Assembly: GCF_003002815.1 (NCBI RefSeq)
Contig: NZ_PVTF01000006.1
Coordinates: 434,001 to 498,000, forward strand
DNA from: Umezawaea tangerina
GTDB lineage: Bacteria; Actinomycetota; Actinomycetes; Mycobacteriales; Pseudonocardiaceae
Direction of reading: 5' to 3'
Length of the DNA: 64,000 nt
A program made the translations under genes and the position numbers. This document shows, in pieces, positions 3,026 to 63,547 of this stretch. Below the pieces are notes generated by a model that did not search any database, was not told where the DNA came from, and worked only from the letters and a program-made list of their open reading frames with translations. Within the stretch, counting starts at the first letter, position 1; the number at the start of each line of letters is the position of its first letter.

Positions 3026-3784
3026 CTACTCCGGCACCCACTCGATGAGCTGGTCGAGGATGCGCGGGTCACCGGCGACCTTCAGCCGGTCCACCGGAAC
3101 GCGGTCGTAGAACGACAGCACCAGATCGCTGGCCGTCGCCGTGGCCGACATGTCCGCGACCTCATCCGTCGCGGCCAACCGGTCGACCCACGCACCCTTG
3201 TCCGACAACCGGAGCCTCCAGGACTCCCCCTCGATCGCGTGGTAGTGCACCACCGCGGGCTCGTGCGGCCACGCGATCGTCGTCGAACAACAGGTCTCCT
3301 GGAACTCCTCGACCCCGTCCAACGCCACCTCTTCCGGCAACGGCCGCGGCACACCCGCCGTCACCTGCGCGTCGTAGGTGTGCACCGCGATCTCCTGCAC
3401 CTGGTGGCGCGCAACAGCTCCACAGGTCGCAGGCGACTGCGCCCTCCCCCACCCGACCCAACACCCACGATCAGGCCCCGCCTCCCGAAGCGCGTCGAGC
3501 AGTTCCCGAGTCGAGTCCGCCATCCACCCAAGAAGCGCCTCCCGCTCCTCCGGCGCCGCCGGCACCACCGGCTGCGCCTTCGCACCAGCCGGCCCCGCCG
3601 CAACCGTGGCCGCCCAGGTACGACGCCCCACACCCAGGTGCTTCACCAGGTCGAACAACGTCCAGTCGGGGCAGGTGGGAACCTGCGCGTGGAGATCAGG
3701 AGCAGAAGCGACAGCCGCGCAGAAGGCGGCAGACCTTTCGTCGATCATGCGAAGCAGGTCGGCGAAGTCCGGGGTGTTGTGCAC
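3026..3784 (-). CDS. Maleylpyruvate isomerase family, mycothiol-dependent protein
   Basis: A 252-residue protein with the N-terminal mycothiol-dependent metal-binding fold (DinB-like four-helix bundle, about residues 8-150) and a C-terminal MDMPI-type domain. Likely metal-binding histidines sit in FDLVKHLG and in RHQVQEIAVHTYDA. The family uses mycothiol, the main thiol of actinobacteria, as cofactor. The founding member isomerises maleylpyruvate, but most relatives have no known substrate, so the reaction here is open. It is encoded alone, convergent with the ABC exporter, with the 800-bp gene-free region upstream. Confidence 0.8.
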   Translation of the reverse strand: MHNTPDFADLLRMIDERSAAFCAAVASAPDLHAQVPTCPDWTLFDLVKHLGVGRRTWAATVAAGPAGAKAQPVVPAAPEEREALLGWMADSTRELLDALREAGPDRGCWVGWGRAQSPATCGAVARHQVQEIAVHTYDAQVTAGVPRPLPEEVALDGVEEFQETCCSTTIAWPHEPAVVHYHAIEGESWRLRLSDKGAWVDRLAATDEVADMSATATASDLVLSFYDRVPVDRLKVAGDPRILDQLIEWVPE

Positions 3785-4160: not shown

Positions 4161-4219
4161 ATCAACACATGGCGGGCAACCTACCCAACGAAGCTGGAAG
4201 CGAGCACGCTCGTCCGCTC

Positions 4220-4339
4220 GTGCGGTCGGCTTGACTTGGGGTTTTTGGGCTTAAAATCGGTCGGCGGGCAGGCTCTACCACCTGCCCTTTTTCGCCCGAC
4301 GAAGCCCAAAAAAGGGGCCCCAAGTCAAGCCGACCGCAC
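4220..4339. repeat. 116-bp hairpin repeat element, copy 1
   Basis: Outer arms of 22 bp pair perfectly, starting GTGCGGTCGGCTTGACTTGG; the 116-bp core shared with copy 2 is 4222-4337. Inside lie a second stem (TTTTTGGGCTT with AAGCCCAAAAA) and a central hairpin GGGCAGG-CTCTACCA-CCTGCCC, so the whole element can fold into one long branched stem. The second copy at 42750-42865 lies in inverted orientation. It encodes no protein. It resembles REPIN/MITE-type elements, but no transposase is present. Confidence 0.8.
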
Positions 4340-4435
4340 CCGGAGACGGCTGTAGCGACACCCAGTGTCGAGCACCACCCAATCAATCCCCTCTGTCCAC
4401 TATAGACACACCCCACCAGAGGTCCCCCCACCGCG

Positions 4436-4540
4436 CCCCCCCGAATCCGATGCTACGACACCCCACCGACAATTTCGTCACCCCCAAAACTACCCACCAG
4501 AAATTGTCGTACCCCATCACTACACTCAAATTCGGGGGGG
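4436..4540. repeat. Nested palindrome in C-rich, gene-free DNA
   Basis: An outer stem CCCCCCCGAAT (4436-4446) pairs with ATTCGGGGGGG (4530-4540). An inner stem CGACAATTTC (4467-4476) pairs with GAAATTGTCG (4500-4509). The surrounding 4380-4600 is C-rich, unlike the coding DNA on both sides. It differs in sequence from the 116-bp element and has no second copy in the window that I could see. Confidence 0.6.
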
Positions 4541-4586
4541 GACCCCCGCGACGGGACACACACAAGAAGCTCCGGCCCCCCGCAAA

Positions 4587-5612
4587 TCAAGCAACAGCGT
4601 GCAAATTGCCATCAGCACCCACGATGCACCGGGCGCTGTTCGTACCCCCCTGGACGAACTCGGTCACGCAGCGGCCGAGTTGGGCGTGGCCGTCGGCGTT
4701 GGGGTGGAAGGACTGCTGGGCCAGGTGGATGCCGATGGCGTCCAGGCCGCCGTGCACGAGGGCGTCGGGGTCGACGGTGATGCGGCGCTGCCATTCGCCG
4801 GTGGAGCTGGCGCCCTTGCTGCACGCCTCGTGGTTCTCGGTGGCGCGGGAGAAGTCGAGGAACTTCACGCCCGCGCGGGTGGCGGCGCCGCGCAGGGCGT
4901 CGGCGAACTGGGGGACGGCGACGGTCCGGCCGTACTGGGCGTCTGCCAGGCGCAGCGGGCAGCCGTAGGGACCGTGCAGGACGGAGTCCATCTTCTCGGT
5001 CAGCGGTGAGGCGTAGGAGGTGAGGACGAAGCTGTAGGACGAGTTCGAGTAGCCGGCCTGGGTCATCGCGGAGCGGACGTCGGCGATCGCGGCCTCGACC
5101 TTCGGCGCCATCGCGGCGAGGCGGGCGGGCCACTCGGTTTGCAGGCTGGAGCGGCAGGACGGGCCGAACGGGTTCAGCCAGGCCTCGATGCAGTCGACGA
5201 TGGTGTCGGCGAACTGCGGGTCGTCGTTGGCGCCGATCTGCAGCACGACCGCGGTCACCCGGTTCTGCCGGGCGATGTCGATCAGGCGCCTGGCCTGCGA
5301 GCCCTCGGTGTAGTGCACGGTGTCGGCCAGCGACACGTTCGCCGAGTCGGCGCCGGAGCAGGCGAGGTTGAACGTCCGGTCGGCCACGTGGGTCTGGTGC
5401 ACCAGCGCACGGGTCGAGCGGTGGCACCAGTTGCCGTTCTCGCCCTCGGTGCCGGGCTCGTAGGACCCCGCGCCCTCACCGGAGATGGCGCTGTCGCCGA
5501 GCGACACGATCGCCGTCGGCCGGGTGTCGCGCGGGGCGGCGGACACGGGTTGGGCGATGGCTCCGGTCAGGACCAGAGCGGCGAGTACTGCTCGAAGCGC
5601 ACCGACGCGCAT
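4587..5612 (-). CDS. Secreted SGNH-family lipase/esterase
   Basis: With the start at 5612 the product has 341 residues and a signal peptide: MRVG, a hydrophobic core to about residue 20, then an Ala-x-Ala site near residue 26. The SGNH blocks are present: GDSAISGEG with the nucleophile Ser41, the oxyanion block GANDD, and SFHPNADGH with Asp-x-x-His near residues 300-309. Six or more cysteines suggest disulfides outside the cell. It probably hydrolyses lipid or sugar esters. The start is chosen over a longer frame because a GGAG box lies 5-6 nt upstream and the signal peptide follows at once. Confidence 0.88.
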   Translation of the reverse strand: MRVGALRAVLAALVLTGAIAQPVSAAPRDTRPTAIVSLGDSAISGEGAGSYEPGTEGENGNWCHRSTRALVHQTHVADRTFNLACSGADSANVSLADTVHYTEGSQARRLIDIARQNRVTAVVLQIGANDDPQFADTIVDCIEAWLNPFGPSCRSSLQTEWPARLAAMAPKVEAAIADVRSAMTQAGYSNSSYSFVLTSYASPLTEKMDSVLHGPYGCPLRLADAQYGRTVAVPQFADALRGAATRAGVKFLDFSRATENHEACSKGASSTGEWQRRITVDPDALVHGGLDAIGIHLAQQSFHPNADGHAQLGRCVTEFVQGGTNSARCIVGADGNLHAVA

Positions 5613-5726
5613 GGCGACTCCAGGAAGATCACGGCCATTTCGCGCCGGTCGACGCAAAACGACCGTAATATCGGCGTTACCGCACGACAATGACCCGAAC
5701 GGTGCTCAAACCCCGTGGGTTCGGGT

Positions 5727-33099: not shown

Positions 33100-33232
33100 G
33101 TCGGCACACGGCGGAGCGGAGTTCCTGGCTCCCGGATCGCTCCGGTGACAGTGGCGGGACCGCGTCGGACTTCCACCGACTTCCTCGCTGCTTCGCCGTT
33201 CGGCCTGACAGTACAGCCGTCACGTAGCATCC
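33100..33232 (-). promoter_or_regulatory. Cobalamin riboswitch upstream of cobN
   Basis: On the minus strand the core GGAAGTCGGTGGAAGTCC, the GGTCCCGCCACTGTC block and the B12 box GAGCCAGGAACTC in its usual order (B12 box at 33119-33129) are all present. Downstream, GGGG-CGAGGA-CCCC can form a hairpin directly before the GGAG ribosome-binding site, so control is probably at translation. When B12 is ample, cobN would be shut off. Boundaries are approximate. The element is antisense to the promoter region of cobG. Confidence 0.9.
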
Positions 33233-37545: not shown

Positions 37546-37682
37546 CCAGGCCAGGTGCGGCAGCCCGCGCAAGTCGCCCGACCTGCACCGCTCCATGACC
37601 GGTCGGGTCGGGCCCCGGCTCCTGAACAGTTCTGGCTCGGCGTGCACACCGAGCCAGGACTCGGGGCTCACCGCATCACGCC

Positions 37683-37784
37683 AGGGCTCAGGCCTCGGGG
37701 CTTGGGCCTCGGGGCTCAGGCCTCGGGGCTCAGGCCTCGGGGCTCAGGGCTCAGGGCTCAGGGCTCAGGGCTCAGGGCTCAGGG
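37683..37784. repeat. GGGCTCA minisatellite between convergent genes
   Basis: A tandem array of GGCCTCGGGGCTCA units changes into about six GGGCTCA heptamers, just beyond the 3' end of cobM. The copy number is probably unstable. It may help end transcription between the SH3-like gene and cobM. Confidence 0.8.
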
Positions 37785-41435: not shown

Positions 41436-41824
41436 ACGGTCCCCAGCGCTCTGGTGACCCGGATCTCGATCACGACGCGCTCGGGGTTCACCCGCGGCGT
41501 CCGGTACCGCTCGGCGTAGCGCCGTTCGGCGTCCGCGACGGCCTCCGGTTCGCGCCGCACGAAGGCGCGCCCCTCCAACGTGGACCACCGGCGTCCGTCC
41601 ACCTGGCACACCGCGACCCGCGCGCCCTCCTCGCCCGCGGCGAGGACGTGCCGCACCTTGTGCGACCCGCCGGACGTGATCACCCGCGCGACCCCCGCCT
41701 CCACGTCGAGCGTGACACCGACGGGCACCACGTGCGGGGTGCCGTTCGCCCGCACGGTGGTGAGCGTGCACAGGTGGCGCTCGGTCCAGAACTCCCCGAA
41801 GTCCGCGCCCTTGTTCGTCAGCAT
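41432..41824 (-). CDS. PPOX-class split-barrel flavin/F420-binding protein
   Basis: 130 residues from an ATG at 41824 (a GTG at 41830 adds two residues). The split-barrel family is shown by HLCTLTTVRANGTPHVVPVG, SHKVRHVLAAGEEGARVAVCQ and WSTLEGRAFV in parts. In actinobacteria, small members use F420 or flavin to reduce diverse substrates. It is tightly coupled to cobL, yet no role in cobalamin synthesis is established; it may simply share the promoter. Confidence 0.8.
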   Translation of the reverse strand: MLTNKGADFGEFWTERHLCTLTTVRANGTPHVVPVGVTLDVEAGVARVITSGGSHKVRHVLAAGEEGARVAVCQVDGRRWSTLEGRAFVRREPEAVADAERRYAERYRTPRVNPERVVIEIRVTRALGTV

Positions 41825-41862
41825 GCGCACATCATGCTTGATCCCACTGCTACCGTTGACGC

Positions 41863-41934
41863 ATGCACGCAGCGCGTCGATTTAGCCACCCCCGGCCGGG
41901 AGCACCGGTCGCCGGGGTCGTCGGCGTGCGCTGA
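41863..41934 (+). CDS. Possible 23-codon upstream reading frame before the PheS-like gene
   Basis: ATG at 41863 begins MHAARRFSHPRPGAPVAGVVGVR and stops at 41934, 70 bp before the PheS-like start. The following leader can form several GC-rich hairpins. It could be a leader peptide, but there is no run of a control codon and no clear ribosome-binding site. Confidence 0.25.
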   Translation: MHAARRFSHPRPGAPVAGVVGVR

Positions 41935-42004
41935 GCGGTTTCCCGGTGACGGACCGGCCGAGGGGAGTCCCCCGCCAGTCCACTCCACCAGATGGGAATC
42001 CACC

Positions 42005-42706
42005 ATGTTGCTCTCCCGCGACCTCACCGACCCCGCACAGGGTCCCCACGCCATCCAGCTGATCCTCGACGACGTCCTGGCCGCCGTCCGCGACACCGCG
42101 GACACACGGGTGGTGCGCGAGGACCCGGTGACCACCGTCGCCGACAACTACACGAACCTGGGCTGCCCGGCGGAGGGCAGTCCGACCGGGCTGCTGCTGC
42201 GCACGCACACCTCCGCGATGGTGCCGCCCGCCCTGCGCGCCCTGGCCGCCGAAGGCGGGCCGTGGGACGTGCTGCTCGCCTGCCCTGGAGCGATCTACCG
42301 CGACGACCCGGTCGACCGCCTGCACATCCGCGCACCGCACCAGCTCGACCTGTGGTGGCTCGGCCGGACCGTCCACGACGTGGGCGACCTCGTCGTGCGC
42401 GCCGTTCGCGGGGCTTTGCCGGGCGTCACGGTTCGGCTGATCCCGGACTCGTACCCCTACGTCGAGGAAGCAGCGCATGTCGATGTGCTGGTGGACGGGC
42501 GGTGGGTGGAGGTCGGAGGGTGCGGGCGGGTGGCGCGGCACGTGCTGGATCGGGCGGGTGTGCCTGTGGAGGTGGGAGGGGTGGCTTTGGGGTTGGGGCT
42601 GGATCGGTTGTTGATGGTGAGGAAGGGGGTGCCGGATGTTCGGTTGTTGGCAGCGGTGGGGGCTGCTGCGCAGATGGTGGATCTGGCGCCTTATCGGGCG
42701 GTGTAG
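42005..42706 (+). CDS. Stand-alone PheS-like class II aaRS core
   Basis: 233 residues matching the catalytic core of phenylalanyl-tRNA synthetase alpha chain. The motif 2 region is ACPGAIYRDDPVDRLHIRAPHQLDLWWL and motif 3 is ALGLGLDRLLMVRKGVPDVRLL, read in parts, with EVGGCGRVARHVLD between. It lacks the N-terminal coiled coil that PheS uses to hold tRNA, and no pheT is nearby. Such paralogues may activate an amino acid for something other than translation. The last 130 bp are G/T-rich compared with the rest. GATGGGAA is a weak start signal. Confidence 0.78.
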   Translation: MLLSRDLTDPAQGPHAIQLILDDVLAAVRDTADTRVVREDPVTTVADNYTNLGCPAEGSPTGLLLRTHTSAMVPPALRALAAEGGPWDVLLACPGAIYRDDPVDRLHIRAPHQLDLWWLGRTVHDVGDLVVRAVRGALPGVTVRLIPDSYPYVEEAAHVDVLVDGRWVEVGGCGRVARHVLDRAGVPVEVGGVALGLGLDRLLMVRKGVPDVRLLAAVGAAAQMVDLAPYRAV

Positions 42707-42749: not shown

Positions 42750-42865
42750 GTGGTCGATTTGACTTGGGGCCCCTTTTTTGGGCTTCGTCGGGCGAAAAAG
42801 GGCAGGTGGTAGAGCCTGCCCGCCGACTCATTGTAAGCCCAAAAACCCCAAGTCAAATCGACCAC
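42750..42865. repeat. 116-bp hairpin repeat element, copy 2 (inverted)
   Basis: This is the same element as at 4222-4337 in reverse orientation, of equal length, differing at 9 of 116 positions. Six of these are three paired changes in the outer arms that keep every base pair (positions 2, 8 and 9 of the arm). It lies between two convergent genes and could also serve as a terminator. Confidence 0.85.
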
Positions 42866-42997: not shown

Positions 42998-44728
42998 CTA
43001 AGTTTTGGCGGTGCCTCTGATCTCGTTGAGGTAGTTGTAGATCGTGTACCTGGTGACGTCCAGGGCGCCTGCTAGGTGGTCGACGGAGTCCTTGATGAGG
43101 AAGTAGCCGGCGTCGTCGAGGACCTTGACCACTTGGGACTTGTGGGTTTTCTTCATCAGTTCCACGGGGACGGTGGCATCGGCGACGGCTCGTTCCACGA
43201 GGAGGCGTTGGAGTGTGTCGACGTCGCCGGGGAAGGTTTCGACCACGCGTTCGGCGCGGCCGGTGGCGGCTTGGTCGCTGTTGACGCAGAGGCAGCCGAC
43301 GGCGACGCCGTCGGCGTCGCGCAGGAAGACGGTGGAGGAGCGGATGACGCGGCCGTCGGGGGCGTAGGTCTCGTAGTTGGTGAGGTCCTGCGTGGTGCCG
43401 CGTCGGACCAGGCCGAGCAGGAGGTCGGTCATCGGGCCGCCCACCTCGCGGCCGGTGAGGTCGCCCGCGATGGCGACGATGGAGTTGGGGAGGGCGCCGA
43501 GGTCGTGCAGGACGACCTCGGTGCCCGCGCCGAGTGCGGCGGCCAGGCTGTTGACGGTGGGGACCAGTGCGGCCAGGACGTCCGAGCCGCCGGAGGCCTG
43601 TTCGATCTCGCGGTGGGCGACGGAGACCGGGCGGCGCACCTCGCGCAGGGCGGCGGCGAAGCGGGCGATGGTCGCCGGGGTGGTGGAGGCGTGCGGGGTG
43701 AGGCGGACGTGCTCGGGGCGGACGGTCGCGGTCACGCCGGTGGCGACCAGGGCCGAGCCGACCACGGACGCGGGGTGGTCGGGCAGCGTGAAGGCGAGGA
43801 TGCCCGCGCGCCGGTCCTCGGCGGACACGACCGTGCCGCCCGCTTCGCGGATGATGTCGGTGAGCTCGTCGAGGCGGGCGGCGATGCGGGCGCCGATGGC
43901 TTGCACACCACCGAGCTCCACCAGTTCCAGCGCGTGCCCGAGCGCACCCGCGGCGACCGGGCTCAGGTTCGTGATGGACCAGCCCGCCGCGCCCTCGGCG
44001 ACGGGGTGGACGTCGTCGTCGAACAGGCCGGGGTCGAGGGCGCCGGTCCAGCCGGACATGAGCGGGTCGAGGCGTTCCAGCGCGCGGTCGGACAGGACCA
44101 TGAACCCGGTGGACCAGCCCGCCCGCAGCCACTTCTGACCGCCGACCACGAGGACGTCGGCGACCTCCCAGGGCTCGTCGACGACACCGAAGCCCTGGAT
44201 GCCGTCCACGACGAGCAGCCGGTCGCCGACGGCCTCGCGGATGCCCGCCAGGTCGGCGCGGTAGCCGGTGCGGAAGTCGACGGCGCTCACCGACACCGCG
44301 GTGGTCGCCGGGGTGAGCGCCTCGTGCACCGCCTCCGGGGTCACCCAGCCGCGGTCGGGGCGCATCCACCGCACCTCCGCGCGGCCCGCCCGCTGCCACG
44401 GGTATGTGTTGGCCGGGAACTCCGCCGCCGAGACGACGACCTCGCCGGTCACTCCGAGCGCGACCTGGAACAGGCCCGTGCTGGTGTTGGGCAGCAGCGT
44501 CACGTGGTCGGTGTCGCTGCGGCACAGCCGGGCGGCGGCGGCCTTCGCCCGCAGCTCCTGCCGCATCAGGTCGTCGACCGTGGAGGGTCCGGCGGCGGCG
44601 GACGCCTCCAGCAGCCGCGTCGACGTGTCGACCACGGCGTGGGAGGGCGGCCCGAACCGGCCGAAGTCCAGGTACCCCTCCGGTTCGTGGAACTGGACGG
44701 AGTACGAGGAGGGGATGCGGTTGGTCAC
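42998..44728 (-). CDS. Class V PLP enzyme fused to a YheO/DauR-type regulator
   Basis: 576 residues in one unbroken frame. Residues 1-365 are a class V aminotransferase/cysteine-desulfurase fold: NTSTGLFQVALG, VVDGIQGFGV and the PLP lysine Lys199 in VVGGQKWLRAGWSTG. Residues about 375-490 are a YheO-like PAS domain (VVLHDLGALPNSIVAIAG, VFLRDADGVAVGCLCVN). The end is a DauR-type HTH (DHLAGALDVTRYTIYNYLNEI). The order is the reverse of MocR regulators, which have the HTH first. It ends an operon with a polar amino-acid ABC importer, starting right at the ATPase stop, so it may both process and sense the imported amino acid. Confidence 0.85.
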   Translation of the reverse strand: MTNRIPSSYSVQFHEPEGYLDFGRFGPPSHAVVDTSTRLLEASAAAGPSTVDDLMRQELRAKAAAARLCRSDTDHVTLLPNTSTGLFQVALGVTGEVVVSAAEFPANTYPWQRAGRAEVRWMRPDRGWVTPEAVHEALTPATTAVSVSAVDFRTGYRADLAGIREAVGDRLLVVDGIQGFGVVDEPWEVADVLVVGGQKWLRAGWSTGFMVLSDRALERLDPLMSGWTGALDPGLFDDDVHPVAEGAAGWSITNLSPVAAGALGHALELVELGGVQAIGARIAARLDELTDIIREAGGTVVSAEDRRAGILAFTLPDHPASVVGSALVATGVTATVRPEHVRLTPHASTTPATIARFAAALREVRRPVSVAHREIEQASGGSDVLAALVPTVNSLAAALGAGTEVVLHDLGALPNSIVAIAGDLTGREVGGPMTDLLLGLVRRGTTQDLTNYETYAPDGRVIRSSTVFLRDADGVAVGCLCVNSDQAATGRAERVVETFPGDVDTLQRLLVERAVADATVPVELMKKTHKSQVVKVLDDAGYFLIKDSVDHLAGALDVTRYTIYNYLNEIRGTAKT

Positions 44729-61405: not shown

Positions 61406-61420
61406 GCATTGAGACAATCG

Positions 61421-61545
61421 CGCGCCGGGGGCTGGGCTTCCCAGGGGTGGGAGGGCAGGGCTGGACTTCGCGCGCCGGGGGCCGGGCTTCCCAGGGGTGG
61501 GAGGGCAGGGGCTGAACTTCACGCGCCGGGGGCCCAACTTCCCCA
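61421..61545. repeat. 50-bp tandem repeat, about 2.5 copies
   Basis: Units begin CGCGCCGGGGGCTGGGCTTC and recur at 61421, 61471 and 61522 with few changes. They end just beyond the stop of the next (minus-strand) gene. Confidence 0.85.
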
Positions 61546-62514: not shown

Positions 62515-63390
62515 TCAGGGCGTCTCCGCCGGTGGGCCGCCGGGGTACCCGTAGAGGCCGGGACCGTCGACGTCGACGGTGTCGAGGAACGCGGTGGACG
62601 CGGCGTACGAGCTGGCGACCAGCTCGGCGGTGTGGCTGAAGTCCAGCGGCGTCACGGGCTGCACGGGCGGGCCGGGCAGGTAGAGGACGGGGACGTCGGC
62701 GGAGGCGAGCTCGACCTCCAGCACGGCCTGGTTGCGCATGCTGAGGGTGGCCCAGAACAGCAGCGTCTCGGCGAGGGTCTGCGGCACGGTCGGCAGGTGT
62801 CCGGGGAACGCACAGTCCAGCACCACCAACGACTTCGCCCCCATCGCGAGGGCCTGGCGGATGGGCACGTTGGCGAGCACGCCGCCGTCGTAGAGGACGC
62901 GCCCCTCGTGGTGCACGGGCGGGTAGACGCCGGGGATGGCGCTGCTGGCCAGGATCGCGGGGACGAGCGCGCCGGTGCGGATGATGACCGGCTGGCCGGT
63001 CATCGAGTCGACCGCCACCGCGCCGAACGGGAGCCGCAGGTCGGCGAAGTCGTCCACCCCGCCGAGCCCCTGGGAGATCACGTCGGCCAGCCCGGTGTTC
63101 GGGAACAGGTGGGTCTTGCCGGTGCGCAGCGTGCGGAGCTGGGCGATCGGGCCGCCGGGGAACACCCTGGCGCGGGTCATCCGCTCCCAGATCAGCGCCA
63201 GCCGCTCCGGCGCCTTGTCGGGGTCGAGGGCGAGCAGCGAGCCGTTGACCGAGCCCACCGACGTGCCCACGACCAGGTCGGGGGCGATGCCGTGCTCGGC
63301 CAACGCGCGCAGCATCCCGACCTGACCCGCGCCGAGGCTGCCGCCACCACCCAGCACGAACCCGACCGGGCCGGGGAGATCCGGCGTCAC
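62515..63390 (-). CDS. Patatin-like phospholipase
   Basis: 291 residues. The oxyanion loop is GGGGSLGAG (14-22), the nucleophile Ser44 in GTSVGS, and the dyad Asp in LYDGGVLANVPI. It hydrolyses lipid acyl esters. The GTG at 63390 overlaps the stop of a 43-residue broken copy of its own N-terminus (GTGA), a product of a local duplication. Confidence 0.9.
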   Translation of the reverse strand: MTPDLPGPVGFVLGGGGSLGAGQVGMLRALAEHGIAPDLVVGTSVGSVNGSLLALDPDKAPERLALIWERMTRARVFPGGPIAQLRTLRTGKTHLFPNTGLADVISQGLGGVDDFADLRLPFGAVAVDSMTGQPVIIRTGALVPAILASSAIPGVYPPVHHEGRVLYDGGVLANVPIRQALAMGAKSLVVLDCAFPGHLPTVPQTLAETLLFWATLSMRNQAVLEVELASADVPVLYLPGPPVQPVTPLDFSHTAELVASSYAASTAFLDTVDVDGPGLYGYPGGPPAETP

Positions 63391-63547
63391 GACGGCGGTC
63401 CCGCGGTGACACGGCACAGGTCGTGCACGGCCAGCACACGCTGCACCCCGACCTGACCCGCGCCAAAACCGCCGCCACCCAGCACGAACCCGACCGGACC
63501 GGGGAGGTCCAGCGTCATGACGGTGGTCCGGCGGTGACGCGGTGCAG
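63311..63547. repeat. Imperfect tandem duplication of about 110 bp
   Basis: 63311-63421 and 63436-63547 are alike, each holding the end of the LLM-oxidoreductase frame (RVTAGPPS) and the start of the patatin frame (DLPGPVGFVLGGGG). The offset is about 126 bp. Enough changes have built up that it is not brand new. Confidence 0.85.
63387..63518 (-). pseudogene. 43-residue truncated patatin N-terminus
   Basis: It begins MTLDLPGPVGFVLGGGG, continues FGAGQVGVQRVLAVHDL and ends RVTAGPPS, which is the tail of the upstream oxidoreductase. The start overlaps the oxidoreductase stop (ATGA) and the stop overlaps the patatin GTG. It cannot be an enzyme but may carry ribosomes across to the intact gene. 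Confidence 0.75.

Follow-up and report, generated by a model that had tools for sequence, protein, structure and literature searches.

The window, that is, the whole 64,000-nucleotide stretch of Umezawaea tangerina DNA that was analysed, contains two copies of a 116-bp hairpin element in opposite orientations, each lying next to the 3′ end of at least one gene. The copies, their parts and their neighbours are as follows.

4222–4337, + strand: hairpin element copy 1, 116 bp
4222–4241, + strand: left outer arm of copy 1 (helix 1), from fold and covariation
4242–4252, + strand: left strand of helix 2 of copy 1, from fold and covariation
4266–4292, + strand: inner 7-bp stem-loop of copy 1 with a run of five Ts (T5), an intrinsic-terminator-like core, from the terminator scan and T-run counts
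4302–4312, + strand: right strand of helix 2 of copy 1, from fold and covariation
4314–4317, + strand: GGGG bulge at the junction of helices 1 and 2 of copy 1, from the fold
4318–4337, + strand: right outer arm of copy 1 (helix 1), from fold and covariation
4190–4221, + strand: left flank of copy 1, common to many copies of the GCGG arm class, with a AGCTGGAAGC unit at 4192 followed by a GAGC/GCTC mini-hairpin
4338–4363, + strand: right flank of copy 1, a ACCCGGAG..GTAGCGACACC unit common to many copies
4587–5690, − strand: neighbour gene of copy 1, 3′ end facing the element (open reading frame and gene caller)
42750–42865, − strand: hairpin element copy 2, 116 bp
42795–42821, − strand: inner stem-loop of copy 2 with T5, from the terminator scan
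41648–42706, + strand: neighbour gene of copy 2, whose stop at 42706 faces the element (open reading frame; start approximate)
42998–44728, − strand: other neighbour gene of copy 2, 3′ end facing the element (open reading frame)

An earlier note on this DNA had described both copies from the letters alone, and its coordinates and lengths were exact to the base. The copies differ at 9 of 116 positions, as claimed; the three compensated arm pairs were found at positions 2/115, 8/109 and 9/108, and the remaining three differences at positions 33, 37 and 38 of the internal loop. Also, the internal hairpin said to be the same in both copies was picked by the terminator scan in each, as an inner stem followed by T5 that resembles a terminator, although with one site found in the copy 2 stretch against a shuffle mean of 1.2 this is not above chance. 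Both neighbours of copy 2 end towards it, so that its gap is convergent. Copy 1, however, is antisense to both of its neighbours, the right-hand one (4587–5690, which we take to be SGNH-hydrolase-like) ending towards it from the opposite strand, so that the T-run of copy 1 does not face the 3′ end behind which the copy lies; reading towards that 3′ end, the scan found only a weaker terminator-like site.

The element is abundant in the window genome (G000; Umezawaea, 10.68 Mb in 34 contigs), where a 22-base pattern of the left arm occurred 57 + 55 = 112 times with up to three mismatches and a 21-base pattern of the right arm likewise 57 + 55 = 112 times. Reversed control patterns had no occurrence in G000 at the same tolerance, and the window copies are therefore no chance pair. 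With patterns that allow three mismatches, 112 is a lower bound. We additionally built a covariance model (R1) from 46 copies of the genus, 45 of them distinct, chosen by a pattern that fixed inner arm bases and left the outer 12 free. Its listed matches cover at least 112 distinct places in G000, in a search that scored 150 candidates per genome and may include opposite-strand matches of the same places. This excludes one refuting outcome named in the earlier note, that only the two window copies exist.

As a plain DNA query, an element copy matched 3 of 60 relatives, all Umezawaea and including the own genome. R1 reached further, with matches in 13 of the 120 family genomes; these belong to 7 of 46 genera, six besides Umezawaea. 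A class-wide draw of 246 genomes gave the own genome as the sole match; stricter filters and the scoring of only 15 candidates per genome make this draw weak evidence of absence. Among named records, eight stretches of Umezawaea endophytica DSM 103496, placed in the Pseudonocardiaceae in the abstract of PMC11008115, matched the element. For the two sister Umezawaea genomes, we sampled 67 copies of G002, from 60 of 77 clusters (at least 84 matches), and 22 copies of G001 in 18 regions; the latter are the best-scoring copies and thus a biased sample. Neither the plasmid nor the phage collection matched the element at E 1e-5, and a plasmid or phage origin was rejected on this ground. No Rfam family reached threshold at either copy, and the sole Rfam match in the window was a cobalamin riboswitch at 33119–33186 on the − strand (41.1 bits against a cut-off of 31.5). 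Among the papers listed from the open-licence literature, none was seen to describe this hairpin family; the earlier note knew of no described family.

Both copies form much more stable folds than their dinucleotide shuffles (z = −10.1 and −8.8, with none of 200 shuffles as good for either copy). Among the 46 genus copies, 97.8% of pair cells hold standard pairs, and both sides have changed at 9 of 43 pairs. Cells with such double changes number 124, where shuffles give 39.6. Two further counts were not extreme: pairs with double changes numbered 9 where 6.7 were expected (15 of 500 shuffles reached as many), and pair types numbered 15 where shuffles gave 17.5 (500 of 500 reached as many). In a cross-genus alignment of 21 sequences from five genera, made with MAFFT without structure, helices 1 and 2 have 92.9% of their cells paired, versus 29 to 53% when slid. 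Double-sided change was seen there at 24 of 31 pairs, including all 11 of helix 2, and in 133 cells against 40 in shuffles; within the genus as well as across genera, none of 500 shuffles reached the observed number of double-change cells. The sequence of helix 2 varies among genera while its pairing is kept, and three of the four columns of the GGGG bulge are invariant in this alignment.

Unpaired arm changes, named in the earlier note as a sign of chance or simple duplication, do occur but are rare. Across the outer 16 pairs, 25 of 1,776 cells are non-Watson-Crick in the 111 placed G000 copies; a T-C mismatch that recurs at position 12 makes up 19 of these. In the 67 G002 copies, 62 of 1,072 cells are non-Watson-Crick, 26 of them at position 12. 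Of 119 distinct copies from the two genomes, 38 have T-C or C-C at that position, the right arm keeping its C, and the position is unpaired in 11 of the 21 rows of the cross-genus alignment.

Neighbouring genes were called by codon usage; 31 kb of the window served as training for all species, and starts are approximate. We placed 111 of the 112 G000 copies, one having been lost to the pattern or flank filter, and none of the 111 lies inside a called gene. Convergent gaps hold 53 of them, tandem gaps 54 (39 sense, 15 antisense) and divergent gaps the other 4. In 107 of the 111 cases one or both neighbouring genes end towards the hairpin, and the distance from the stop of the left gene to the hairpin has a median of 138.5 bases (92 copies with a left gene ending at the hairpin). 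Background gaps, taken from the window and the fetched regions L153–L297 of all three species, of at least 150 bases and without the element (n = 170), comprised 17 convergent, 90 tandem and 63 divergent ones (divergent versus rest, Fisher p = 6e-12). Corresponding counts were 31 convergent, 24 sense, 9 antisense and 3 divergent in G002 (n = 67), and 4, 10, 7 and 1 in G001 (n = 22). Many copies in gene gaps with covarying arms is what the earlier note had asked to be looked for; copy number, the absence of placed copies from called genes and the covarying stems together support its proposal of selection on the folded form.

Within tandem gaps the element lies preferentially in sense with the gene before it: in 39 of 54 cases in G000 (p = 0.0015) and 24 versus 9 in G002 (p = 0.014), while 10 versus 7 in G001 is not significant (p = 0.63). 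Pooled over the three genomes the count is 73 of 104 (73 versus 31, p = 5e-5), a p value that is too small because G000 and G002 copies at shared places are not independent; once the G002 positional partners and all G001 copies are left out, 47 of 67 remain in sense (p = 0.0013). Outside Umezawaea, 7 of 8 sampled copies from genera g30 and g27 and from genome G107 stand in sense behind a gene. The left gene is in sense in just 4 of 11 copies of G009 and 1 of 5 of g34, genomes in which the hairpin is linked to DUF222 genes and most sampled hairpins are preceded by the 5′ side of such a gene.

A run of at least four Ts follows the inner stem in 111 of 111 G000, 42 of 67 G002 and 19 of 22 G001 copies; it is three or shorter in 25 of the 67 G002 copies, and by eye no run of four was seen in sampled g34 and g17 copies. 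As a family, the copies combine the marks of an intrinsic terminator, a GC-rich stem followed by a T-run and a place behind genes in sense, although window copy 1, being antisense, does not share this last property. Position, orientation bias, stem and T-run argue for the earlier suggestion of a widespread terminator and the orientation of copy 1 against it, which together amounts to support rather than proof. REP-like repeats, for their part, may gather at gene ends merely as the least harmful place.

On the hairpin strand, the 100 bases to either side of the element contain little T (8 to 9% for G000 and G002, 11 to 16% for G001) and much C, in G000 regardless of the direction of the neighbouring genes. 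C-rich, T-poor RNA recalls Rho loading sites. In G000, ACGCTGGAA occurs 103 times within 400 bases to the left of hairpins, near 47 of the 111 copies, and within that distance never to the right or on the other strand; AGCGAYAC shows the reverse, with 122 occurrences on the right and 2 on the left. Across the 59 regions L153–L211, ACGCTGGAA was found 42 times between genes and not once in 241 kb of genes. Both motifs mark G000, with hardly any in G002, while G001 has ACGCTGGAA on the right. The examined G000 copies start with GC, GT or GG and end with GC or AC. We also observed in G000 gaps an intergenic unit around ACGCTGGAAGC (for example in L009 and L026, with a variant at window position 4192), which lies on the 5′ side of hairpins alone (103 to 0) and is absent from 241 kb of genes; a unit resembling it lies on the 3′ side in G001.

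By comparing the flanks of the 111 G000 copies with those of the 67 G002 copies, we asked for positional partners under the rule of at least 250 bases of at least 83% homology, on the same side and no more than 600 bases from both hairpins. This rule gave 33 pairs, that is, 33 of the 67 sampled G002 copies, 22 of them with homology on both sides; same-side homology of any extent linked 45 G000–G002 pairs. The flanks of partners are 84 to 96% alike and the partner hairpins themselves 82.7% (82.6% for 33 pairs chosen by eye, a set differing from the rule set in one pair), compared with 81.0% for random G000–G002 hairpin pairs, 93.2% within G000 and 82.3% within G002. In just 2 of 33 cases was the partner the best match among the 67 G002 copies. 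With partners at 82.7% against 93.2% within G000, the places have been inherited and the sequences homogenised.

Arm classes and loop types are combined in many ways in G000, and arm positions 5 and 8 occur in all four combinations, yet at the four class positions no more than 3 of 444 cells are mismatched between the arms (in shuffles, a mean of 42 to 52 of 111 at each position). Between partners, double-sided changes number 43 among the arm cells and single-sided ones 18, against about 5.5 doubles expected if the sides were independent. Some mixed arm classes could also have arisen by recurrent mutation. Of the rare arm letters, 28 are unpaired and 5 paired, which speaks against an instant correction of one arm by the other; such a one-step correction was weakened as a candidate on this count.

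In G001, 3 of 22 copies share a place with G000 copies, and all three places are shared with G002 too. Copy 2 has a positional partner in G002 (L223). At the copy 1 locus, the outer genes of G001 lie about 50 bp apart with no element by R1, and by eye a different, perfect 14-bp stem stands behind the stop codon; the corresponding 5 kb of G002 likewise hold no element by R1. Gene 3026–3784 beside copy 1 is also absent from that place in the G001 and G002 matches, so that neither locus is a clean empty site. Beside copy 1, a second palindrome-like stretch (window 4438–4549) was noticed by eye, with arms of about 11 and 9 bases; a repeat search with a minimum of 12 gave no pair, and it has a 74% match in the corresponding stretch of G002 (2913587–2913706). 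Four G001 regions (L280, L284, L285 and L288) hold inverted pairs of hairpins about 70 to 140 bases apart, the members of a pair belonging to different subtypes.

Outside Umezawaea, the hairpin is linked to DUF222 genes in two genera, and this link is real. Of 21 hairpin matches in G009, 18 were listed, and each of these has a DUF222 match no more than 0.9 kb away; two encoded proteins that were scanned both carry DUF222 and HNH. Four units in this genome have the gene between inverted, outward-facing hairpins 1.8–2.0 kb apart, the hairpins sitting in inverted repeats of 259 to 380 bases; these units (L113–L116), IS-like, about 2 kb long and with hairpin-bearing inverted repeats at their ends, are a possible mobile unit with an HNH protein. 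Similarly, 4 of 5 listed hairpins (of 25 matches) in the g34 genome G035 stand beside a DUF222 match, and DUF222-like frames were found in the fetched hairpin loci of two further g34 genomes (G092 and G119). The listed hairpins of G031 (10), G107 (4) and G080 (2) are not near DUF222 matches. DUF222 matches number 0 in G000, 0 in G001 and 7 in G002, and the query found nothing in the window or in L001–L098, which include Umezawaea copies with at least about 1.5 kb of flank. DUF222 can therefore not be what drives the G000 and G001 copies at present, and we rejected it as their motor.

In behaviour the element is nearest to the ERIC and REP repeats, and we found no described family that holds it. 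ERIC (also IRU or RU-1; enterobacteria, 127 bp) is similar in length, in its long imperfect hairpin, in its many intergenic copies and in that orientation matters; an excerpt of PMC2229807 describes it as an intergenic many-copy hairpin with a short terminal repeat, TA termini and a target duplication. Measured against that excerpt, the Umezawaea termini are not TA, the copies stand behind genes with a T-run, and the equal triplets that flank G000 copies are all ACC and confined to the GTGG arm class. REP, BIME and REPIN sequences are likewise high-copy extragenic palindromes with compensatory changes, the latter reported for REPIN hairpins in the part of PMC3116915 available to us. The Umezawaea genomes, by contrast, have no Y1 match, and their element is a single 116-nt unit with a T-run instead of paired short REPs. 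Higgins and others reportedly brought up gene conversion of REPs in a review of 1988. Pairs of DNA uptake sequences are also a repeated hairpin taken for a terminator, according to an excerpt of PMC2267715, compared with which the Umezawaea hairpin is much longer and structured throughout. Mycobacterial REP13E12, which appears as a named repetitive element, REP13E12/HNH/DUF222, in a portion of PMC10589994, resembles by description the hairpins beside DUF222 genes in the two other genera. It differs from the situation in the window genome, where there are 0 DUF222 matches and the hairpins stand alone.

Among the possible explanations, a structured RNA with a function of its own, small RNA or riboswitch-like and read from one strand, appears very improbable to us despite the strong covariation and stable fold. 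An outer stem kept for RNA of one strand should show more G-U pairs, which are tolerated, than C-A pairs, which are not; however, G000 and G002 together have 16 G-U and 17 C-A (2:2 in G000, 14:15 in G002), and the cross-genus alignment has 14 and 11. With the two equally common, no single RNA strand explains the outer stem, and the strand-specific form of the earlier suggestion of a structured RNA is not supported; the stem would be kept at the DNA level or via transcripts of both strands, which could occur between convergent genes. By eye, most sequences do have a TANNNT motif in the left loop 15–17 nt behind TTKAC, but many G002 copies break it (TGCACT or TGCAAT) and the promoter scan was negative at both window copies, for which reasons a left-strand promoter TTKAC..TANNNT was dropped; the lack of an Rfam family at threshold also counts against an RNA of this kind. 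To a REPIN or MITE that a transposase actively spreads in trans we give almost no credence, even though the copy number is high, the ends are palindromic and the 112 copies, with none of those placed inside a called gene, behave as a high-copy extragenic palindrome. The Y1 transposase (PF01797), the enzyme expected under the earlier REPIN reading, matched 0 of 3 Umezawaea genomes, compared with 5 of 14 controls (5 of the 41 genomes searched), and RAYT is thus not supported as a driver. As to the MITE suggestion, G000 has no lone arms at up to three mismatches (112 left, 112 right), about half of the sampled G002 copies share their places with G000 copies, and the search for a clean empty site gave none. 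Equal flanking triplets, readable as a short duplication, are found in 20 of 27 G000 copies of the GTGG class (4 of 13 in G002), yet in G000 these are always ACC and never another triplet, and the other arm class has them in 0 of 84 G000 and 1 of 54 G002 copies. RAYT acts on REPINs, and the hairpin could in the same way be a non-autonomous offspring of a DUF222-HNH element, an end structure for its nuclease. The G009 hairpins, with their four gene-between-hairpins units, and the four G035 hairpins beside DUF222 matches argue for this descent, but the DUF222 counts in the three Umezawaea genomes, the negative query in the window and L001–L098 and the hairpins of G031, G107 and G080 away from DUF222 matches make it quite unlikely.

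The explanation we favour, tentatively and at little short of an even chance, is an ERIC/REP-like element at gene ends that bears a terminator and is kept alike by gene conversion. The hairpins stand at gene ends with a preference for sense, have a GC-rich stem with a T-run and are flanked by C-rich, T-poor DNA; on the sense strand, the inner stem would end transcription of the preceding gene, and in convergent gaps the long stem would shield the two genes from each other. The covarying fold, the shared places and the homogenised sequence are likewise observed, and ectopic gene conversion would pass sequence between copies, with possible help from the palindrome through hairpin cleavage or template switching, which could also keep both arms matched. 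A selfish ERIC/REP-like repeat without a job, tolerated behind genes and made alike by copying bursts and gene conversion, is possible, although we lean against it. Its size, hairpin form and intergenic habit match ERIC-type repeats as the excerpt describes them, the sets of copies differ by species (3 of 22 G001 copies at G000 places), G001 lacks the element at the copy 1 locus with outer genes about 50 bp apart, and copy 1 is antisense; the sense bias, the T-run of at least four in every placed G000 copy and the 33 of 67 sampled G002 copies kept in place, however, suggest use. Unlikely, in our judgement, is a self-homogenising element, in which the terminator palindrome itself would drive its concerted evolution and would be the same hairpin as the end structure of DUF222-HNH units elsewhere. 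Here the stem, folded out as DNA, would be cut or template-switched and repaired from any sister copy, with stem and cap pieces moving between loci while the arms stay matched and the locus fixed; in some genera the hairpin would have become, or begun as, the end of a DUF222-HNH unit.

Gene conversion among dispersed bacterial palindromes, an idea of long standing, is difficult to demonstrate, since it requires knowing which copies in two species occupy the same place; here some thirty places can be compared at once between two species, the place kept and the sequence replaced. Should the element also stop transcription, it would raise the question of how the likeness of a hundred terminators is maintained in one genome and whether that likeness is used. 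Were the self-homogenising element real, DUF222-HNH would be a second type of enzyme acting on dispersed hairpins, beside RAYT. The DUF222 link would give a lead on the function of a repeated actinobacterial protein family.

Elsewhere in the window, we observed tandem repeats at 37682–37784 (heptamer CAGGGCT, 14.7 copies), 61418–61534 (50-base unit, 2.3 copies) and 63291–63542 (128-base unit, 1.9 copies).
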